A DNA stretch of 61,542 nucleotides from a bacterium 1XD21-70 (GTDB taxonomy: Bacteria; Bacillota; Clostridia; Lachnospirales; Lachnospiraceae). Under the pieces are notes generated by a model, which worked only from the letters and a program-made list of their open reading frames with translations, was not told where the DNA came from and made no database searches. Of this stretch, positions 10,944-11,403 are shown piece by piece (within the stretch, counting starts at the first letter, position 1; every line of letters begins with the position of its first letter). The stretch covers positions 1 to 61,542 of the forward strand of contig RAYB01000031.1 of the NCBI GenBank assembly GCA_003669055.1, read 5' to 3'. Both the position numbers and the translations under genes were made by a program.

Positions 10944-11403
10944 CCAGGTGATAAAAATAGTCACCTGGTAAGTGATCAATTTGGTCACTTACCAAAAATC
11001 AGTGGCTCAAAACGAACCACTGATACCGTCAGCATGGGGTGGACAAATTCTGTCCACCCTACTTTTCTAAGATAGAAGCAGCTATAATCAGTGATTTTCA
11101 GTAGCGGCTACCGATATTTGTGGTGGTGACAAACTCTGTCACCATCAGCTGTCGCAGCATAGCACCAACGGACAAAAGTTATCCGTTGATTTTCGGCAAT
11201 GTGGTGCGGGCTGTTTTGACCCGCACCATGTCATTAGAGCGCAAATCAACTGTTCAATTTGAGCAGTTGATTTGGCAGATGCCAATATGAGGTGGGTCAA
11301 AGCGGTGCGGACACAAAATGACCGCACCACATTGTGTTGTTAGAGCGAGTAGTTTTAGCGTACCAAAGTGGCCTGGGTCAAAATGACCCAGGCCACTTTG
11401 GTA
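10944..11403. repeat. Array of ten hairpins with unrelated stems
   Basis: Ten perfect stem-loops stand in a row: 10944-10968, 10967-10993, 10998-11024, 11037-11059, 11124-11144, 11166-11188, 11202-11228, 11243-11273, 11304-11328 and 11361-11403. Stems are 7-10 bp except the last, a perfect 20-bp stem around AAA. Stem sequences differ, yet most loops hold a CAAAA- or TCAAAAtGA-like core or its complement. There is no coding frame across the region. It is not a CRISPR array, as there is no constant repeat. It precedes the serine resolvase gene. Possible roles: resolvase or relaxase recognition, replication origin, or a structured transcript. Confidence 0.85.

Follow-up and report, generated by a model that had tools for sequence, protein, structure and literature searches.

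The hairpin array lies at positions 10944–11403 of the window (the entire 61.5-kb stretch of DNA that was analyzed), in the spacer between a gene for a small HTH protein and a gene for a serine resolvase (Table 1). The first-pass annotation had counted ten hairpins in these 460 bases and a last stem of 20 bp, and both statements are borne out. Ten perfect stems of 7–20 bp are present, nine of them non-overlapping, along with decayed ones. The tenth perfect stem (8 bp; hairpin 1 in Table 1) overlaps hairpin 2 by three bases, so these two cannot both form fully at the same time. With mismatches allowed, the array has 11 triloop-centered hairpins, one of which is decayed.

Table 1. The hairpin array and the genes that border it. 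Stem families (F1, F2, F3, and so on) were grouped by eye.
Feature	Position	Strand	Description
76-amino acid HTH protein gene	10711..10941	+	Clr5 above Pfam cut-off, DUF6471 below; upstream border of array
Hairpin 1	10944..10968		CCAGGTGA / TCACCTGG, loop 9 nt; right arm runs into hairpin 2
Hairpin 2	10966..10994		F4-like (TAAGTG..CACTTA), 13 pairs including one G-T
Hairpin 3	10998..11024		F2 (ATCAGTGG..CCACTGAT); present in all five array types
Hairpin 4	11035..11061		Two compensated pair changes relative to L009
Decayed hairpin	11098..11114		L009 counterpart perfect (AATATCGGTAG cgg CTACCGATATT)
Hairpin 5	11121..11147		F1 (TGGTGGTG..CACCA)
Hairpin 6	11164..11190		F3 (CAACGGA..TCCGTTG), perfect stem 7 bp
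Hairpin 7	11202..11228		F6 (TGGTGCGGG..CCCGCACCA)
Hairpin 8	11242..11274		15 pairs including one G-T; apex TCA att TGA
Hairpin 9	11298..11334		Perfect core 11304–11328; related to hairpin 7
Hairpin 10	11361..11403		20-bp perfect stem, 3-nt loop, apex TCA aaa TGA
Small serine resolvase gene	11444..12088	+	Identified by Pfam; downstream border of array

The density of hairpins is far above chance. Counting perfect stems with loops of 3–12 nt, against a null of 200 dinucleotide shuffles, we found nine non-overlapping stems of at least 7 bp per 500 bases (shuffle mean 0.29, maximum 3) and seven of at least 8 bp (0.08 in shuffles). The next densest 500-base interval in the 61.5 kb, near 17.5 kb, has three hairpins of at least 8 bp. 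The pairing over 34 hairpins of five arrays (92.2% vs. 56.8% shuffled) is expected regardless, as these 34 were picked as hairpins.

The stems had been described as all different, which was overstated: hairpin 7 and the perfect core of hairpin 9 both contain GGTGCGG, and several left arms are TGGTG-like. The same 13-mers adjoin hairpins 7 and 9, which suggests local duplication. The shared loop core described earlier is real, but loose. A CA..TG apex occurs in six of the 11 window hairpins (CA-N3-TG in three, CA-N5-TG in three, neither in five) and in 25 of the 34 hairpins of the five arrays (17, 8, and 9, respectively). Among 77 triloop hairpins outside arrays, from 202 loci not fetched by the covariance model described below, a CA apex occurs in 18, with GC next at 13.

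Pfam assigned families to all but one of nine neighboring proteins scanned: an HTH_3 repressor, the small HTH protein, the resolvase, an Eco57I-type methylase, ResIII, DUF3847, MobA/MobL, and a large serine recombinase. The earlier placement of the array between HTH and serine resolvase genes on a mobilizable element thus stands. No Nop domain was found among these nine proteins. At 6449–9106, open reading frames resemble a CBASS operon (CD-NTase-like, E2/SEC-C-like, and membrane effector) as read by eye from the translations. A second hairpin-rich spacer, with three perfect stems of at least 8 bp, lies at 17530–17700 upstream of DUF3847/MobA. It contains a GTGCGC-type stretch at ~17540–17580, 0.7 kb before MobA, which we take to be nic-like, and this spacer is likely an oriT plus a terminator.

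Related junctions and hairpin clusters

Within the order, 17 of 392 genomes have a match to the HTH protein, and within the family to which the L008 genome belongs 54 of 400 do; the resolvase scan covered the best 80 of 571 relatives in genome contigs and 29 viral contigs. HTH matches with a downstream resolvase include five array types (window/L008, L009, L070, L322, and L328); the array of L008, from Pseudoflavonifractor sp. 524-17, is almost the same as that of the window. Homologous junctions lacking hairpins, which the first-pass annotation had named as refuting its interpretation, also occur. In 20 matches the two genes abut within 23 bp, corresponding to 19 places (L002 and L075 coincide) and 17 distinct resolvase sequences (three matches have an identical resolvase stretch), a count that excludes six matches with only a distant resolvase match (25–27% identity). 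Spacers of 80–215 bp without arrays are found in L015, L030, and L012, and in L055 the array at the junction is replaced by a ParB-type gene (4931–5830, identified by eye) that has a coding hairpin of its own (5320–5344). On the resolvase tree, which leaves out L328, L321, L323, and L342, the array state requires three changes, at least two of them forced by well-supported branches. One further locus (L394, G915:C46) has a two-hairpin array upstream of a resolvase reading frame from which an internal segment is missing, and this element has therefore probably decayed.

Beyond these junctions, a class-wide DNA search matched two of 391 genomes, namely the window's own genome and one weak array-free place. 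BLAST with the HTH gene plus spacer returned no plasmid matches and one phage record, which matched in the HTH part only. Pair-pattern scans of IMG/VR returned 91 and 67 stretches, one of them common to both, and the detector found no cluster among them.

Array hairpins change mostly on one side. Over 84 pairs in the seven hairpins shared by the window and L009, 68 are the same, 14 are paired in only one of the two (in L009 for ten of these), and two are compensated. Uncompensated arm changes, the other result the annotation had named as refuting, thus account for 14 of the 16 changed pairs. Likewise, 52 pairs in four hairpins of L070 and L322 comprise 44 unchanged, seven one-sided, and one compensated. 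Across the five arrays, the ATCAGTGG hairpin has five compensated and 26 one-sided changes, these being pairwise counts and not independent events. Selection for structure, as had been proposed for this array, is unsupported, given the hairpin-free junctions and the 14 to 2 excess of one-sided over compensated changes. Instead, the pattern among array units is, as judged from these comparisons, apparently one of birth and decay. At the array ends, a repeat of 8 bases is present in L070 and one of 6 bases in the window, with nothing convincing in L009 or L322; we do not claim a target duplication. No transposition event was caught among these loci, in the form of an empty and filled site pair with clean borders.

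To find related hairpins elsewhere, we used a covariance model, scoring at most 150 candidates per genome. It had matches in seven of eight genomes, and in six of these outside the HTH-resolvase junction. Clusters found by the model between a large serine recombinase gene and MobC include one in the window's own genome (L415) and three others (L416, L418, and L419); the clusters beside these two genes are on G000:C86, G796:C82, G796:C11, and G797:C140, with Pfam having been run on L416. Single matches fell in a ParB-like gene (L417) and a RhuM gene (L420), and two lone matches (L421 and L423) look by eye like ordinary terminators. The hairpins of L035 were missed by the covariance search on large input, apparently because of speed filters, and later scans were carried out with scripts; scans added clusters in L011, L035, L051, L054, and L345. 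Altogether, intergenic clusters have 2–11 units and lie in spacers beside recombinase and mobilization genes. In one of these (L419:2190–2410), the hairpins are inside outer inverted repeats (CGTTACG/CGTAACG) and the spacer TAACCGTAACG is repeated, as if a hairpin plus spacer had been duplicated and the hairpin had diverged faster afterwards.

Individual stem families are rare. Strict F1 occurs in one of 196 genomes of the class, and hence is not a proliferating repeat, and in two IMG/VR contigs, one of which (L428) is probably fortuitous, the match lying in GC-rich coding sequence. F2 occurs in three contigs. We found no paper on such a hairpin family among titles and abstract openings, a search whose scope lay outside preprints and most subscription journals.

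Palindromes within ParB-like and RhuM genes

Of the three F2 contigs, two (L429 and L431) have the hairpin within ParB-like genes, as does the model match L417, and all three copies occupy one site. The term "ParB-like" is used here because these genes are homologous to genes of phages and plasmids that carry a ParB N-terminal annotation, with the HTH beside the site read by eye; Pfam gave no family for L417 or L432. With a score of at least 9.8 as the threshold, 23 homologues out of 38 have an in-frame palindrome at this site, or 20 of 35 once those found through hairpins are left out. Of the 23, 14 come from a set of 21 distinct homologues (11 of 18 excluding the three found through hairpins). 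The phage records contribute seven of 12 (12 fetched of 31 matching); two others score below threshold (L474, 9.2; L476, 9.6) and three have none (L475, L477, and L478). Among plasmid records the count is two of five (five fetched of 57), the other three having a 9-bp palindrome (L501), a weak one (L502), and none (L503). The palindromes are mostly different in sequence, and the reading frame is kept. In an Emticicia plasmid (L504), two palindromes that resemble each other, with GGGACA aaa TGTCC cores, seem to be present in the linker of the ParB-like gene.

RhuM genes likewise have a palindrome at one site, in eight of ten overall and in five of seven without those found through hairpins. All four RhuM genes in the analyzed loci have it, three of which were first noticed by their hairpins, as do four of six plasmid records (six fetched of 125; the other two score 8.6 and 8.8). 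The same score was reached by few control genes (six of 108 resolvase, one of 95 HTH, none of 15 MobA/L, and two of 13 large serine recombinase genes) and by 32 of 683 control windows of 240 nt. These frequencies suggest that coding palindromes are kept, or remade, at the ParB-like and RhuM sites, and their persistence at a single site in phyla far apart is more suggestive of function than of insertion by chance. ParB hairpins have 82 compensated and 15 one-sided changes, a ratio that is biased because only palindrome-bearing copies were compared.

A few stems are common to coding and intergenic sites. Window hairpin 6 and the ParB copy of L436 are identical at 22 of 24 arm positions, as are L416 and L471, and L427 and L472 are identical at all 24. 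The last two hairpins, of which L472 is in a ParB-like gene, are the same over 33 bp. By our reading, the L427 copy is probably intergenic, as it lies between long open reading frames within a 172-amino acid frame that we deem spurious. We compared 43 intergenic with 14 coding hairpins, after taking out the three coding copies that had been found through their hairpins and with RhuM stems outside the statistics. Three pairs were identical at 22 or more of 24 positions (0.12 expected, reached in 0 of 1000 permutations), four at 21 or more (0.54 expected, 10 of 1000), and six at 20 or more (1.7 expected, 14 of 1000); keeping the three hairpin-found copies gives 16 pairs, an inflated count. Stem sharing between coding and intergenic sites is thus moderately supported, less so at the lower thresholds.

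Possible origin and role of the array

We favor, tentatively, a reading of the array as a cluster of short hairpin repeats belonging to a dispersed family that is carried on mobile elements of gut Clostridia. The proposed family has perfect stems of 7–20 bp, typically with 12–14 paired positions around a triloop, an apex that is often CA..TG, and several recurrent stem families. Units would be perfect palindromes when they first arrive or arise; accretion and local duplication would then enlarge the arrays, and decay of the copies would follow. With less support, the arms may be made or kept perfect by copying across the hairpin through template switching, possibly when transfer or replication leaves the element single-stranded, and such copying could also carry a hairpin into another site. 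The coding palindromes may be maintained either by function or by arm-to-arm copying. A single origin of the ParB, RhuM, and intergenic palindromes is a candidate reading. At the locus studied here, the array would uncouple the HTH and resolvase genes, which abut in most pairs found, and would place a strongly folded stretch ahead of the resolvase start.

It is also conceivable, though unlikely, that each palindrome is the symmetric duplex site of a mobile-element HTH protein (ParB-like, RhuM, or small HTH), with arrays bringing together such sites, of many different specificities, to serve as mimics or decoys. Such sites would be in keeping with the position of the palindromes, which adjoin putative HTH codons (assigned by eye) in ParB-like and RhuM genes, and with the differences among homologues, which are expected if site and protein co-evolve. 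A parS site lies within spo0J, and the oriT mimics of staphylococcal plasmids, discussed below, provide a precedent for captured sites. Yet perfect symmetry of at least 12 bp exceeds what a single HTH usually reads. Among scanned ParB neighborhoods, moreover, a further member of the local stem family was seen only in G796:C11, the others having the ParB copy alone or one weak hairpin (G806:C3), and tblastn queries (three ParB-like proteins, one of ParB type, and one RhuM) detected no ParB-like or RhuM gene in the window.

We regard as rather unlikely the more specific proposal that the palindromes are cognate sites of the mobile-element DNA-binding proteins beside whose HTH codons they lie, and that the array stores the sites of many elements. 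Specificity and site would then move together, and the array would be served by, or would titrate, an arriving helper or rival. This would constitute a cis-acting site library without guide RNA.

Improbable in our estimation is a single-stranded DNA element, such as an origin, a promoter, or a protection of the transferred strand, in which hairpin shape is selected. Both strands do fold as DNA far beyond shuffles (z –12.8 for the plus strand and –11.7 for the minus strand), most carriers are mobile elements, and the mismatches in 26 hairpins of the five arrays have no strand preference (ten G-T and eight A-C on the resolvase-sense strand). Against selection for shape, one-sided changes dominate in arrays, hairpins are missing from most HTH-resolvase pairs found, and phage records too have coding copies.

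About as improbable is a structured RNA between the two cistrons, which would control expression of the resolvase or serve as a sponge. The array is located between two co-directional genes and its plus strand folds strongly as RNA (z –15.1), but the opposite strand is nearly as foldable (z –12.4), as is true for both strands of other arrays. The mismatch counts given above and those in 17 ParB copies (one G-T and five A-C on the sense strand) reveal no G-U bias, and so give no indication of a sense RNA. Rfam contains no family that matches at its cut-off (the best, rli61, scores 27.8 bits vs. 50), in agreement with the earlier remark that the array fits no named feature.

Returning to the dispersed hairpin family, two unrelated gene families in several phyla have coding palindromes at fixed sites whose arms change, and a few of the stems recur in intergenic clusters. 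These observations point to an unrecognized cis-acting or mobile hairpin system that would belong to phages and conjugative elements. The ParB-like and RhuM genes would also offer a test bed for how short perfect palindromes are made and maintained in DNA that has a single-stranded stage.

Comparison with known systems

REP sequences with GTAG and CGTC tags are described as palindromes of 20–40 bp that occur between genes, sometimes within them, with units often close together (PMC3733652). The array hairpins are likewise clustered intergenic palindromes of 20–40 bp, some of which have counterparts in genes, and this agreement in size and form speaks for an assignment to the classical REPs, which a RAYT (Y1 transposase) mobilizes. 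Such a reading is nevertheless very improbable because tags flank only three of 33 array hairpins (either strand, within 8 nt), Y1_Tnp (PF01797) is found in five of nine genomes and is absent from G797, G813, G869, and G915, none of the eight Y1_Tnp loci examined (of nine) has a hairpin with a CA..TG apex, and copy number is low, with array DNA matching its own genome only at its own place (one strict F1 site) and that of L070 having no further match below E 0.2 in its genome. The hairpins here also differ in having several stem families and mobile elements as carriers. As three of four tested REP features fail, we do not file the family as REP, although it is REP-like in kind.

Rickettsia palindromic elements are longer and known from one genus, and occur in-frame in protein genes as well as in spacers. 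The hairpins described here are similarly found in-frame in genes and in spacers, but are about 30 bp in length, extend over several phyla, and take fixed sites in genes. CsrB/RsmZ-type sponge RNAs have GGA in most loops, whereas none of the 11 window hairpins has GGA as its central triplet, and we rejected this assignment. A CRISPR array was rejected as well, since constant repeats with unique spacers are missing and the only direct repeats here are two-copy ones.

TIGR arrays resemble the array in being rows of hairpins; their loops have C/D-like motifs and spacers, one example comes from a gut microbiome, and some arrays are accompanied by a ParB-like gene (PMC12045711). By those rules a TIGR assignment is not supported, as the central loops here are of 3–5 nt. 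The mitochondria of Nematomorpha have perfect inverted repeats in coding sequence, as do the genes described here, but theirs are mitochondrial and longer, reaching 284 bp, with both arms coding for conserved protein (PMC6649704). Finally, staphylococcal plasmids have captured two or three oriTs of different subtypes together, which have inverted repeats and are recognized by SmpO (PMC8136818). The array resembles these in being a gathering of sites with inverted repeats, and differs in having up to 11 hairpins.
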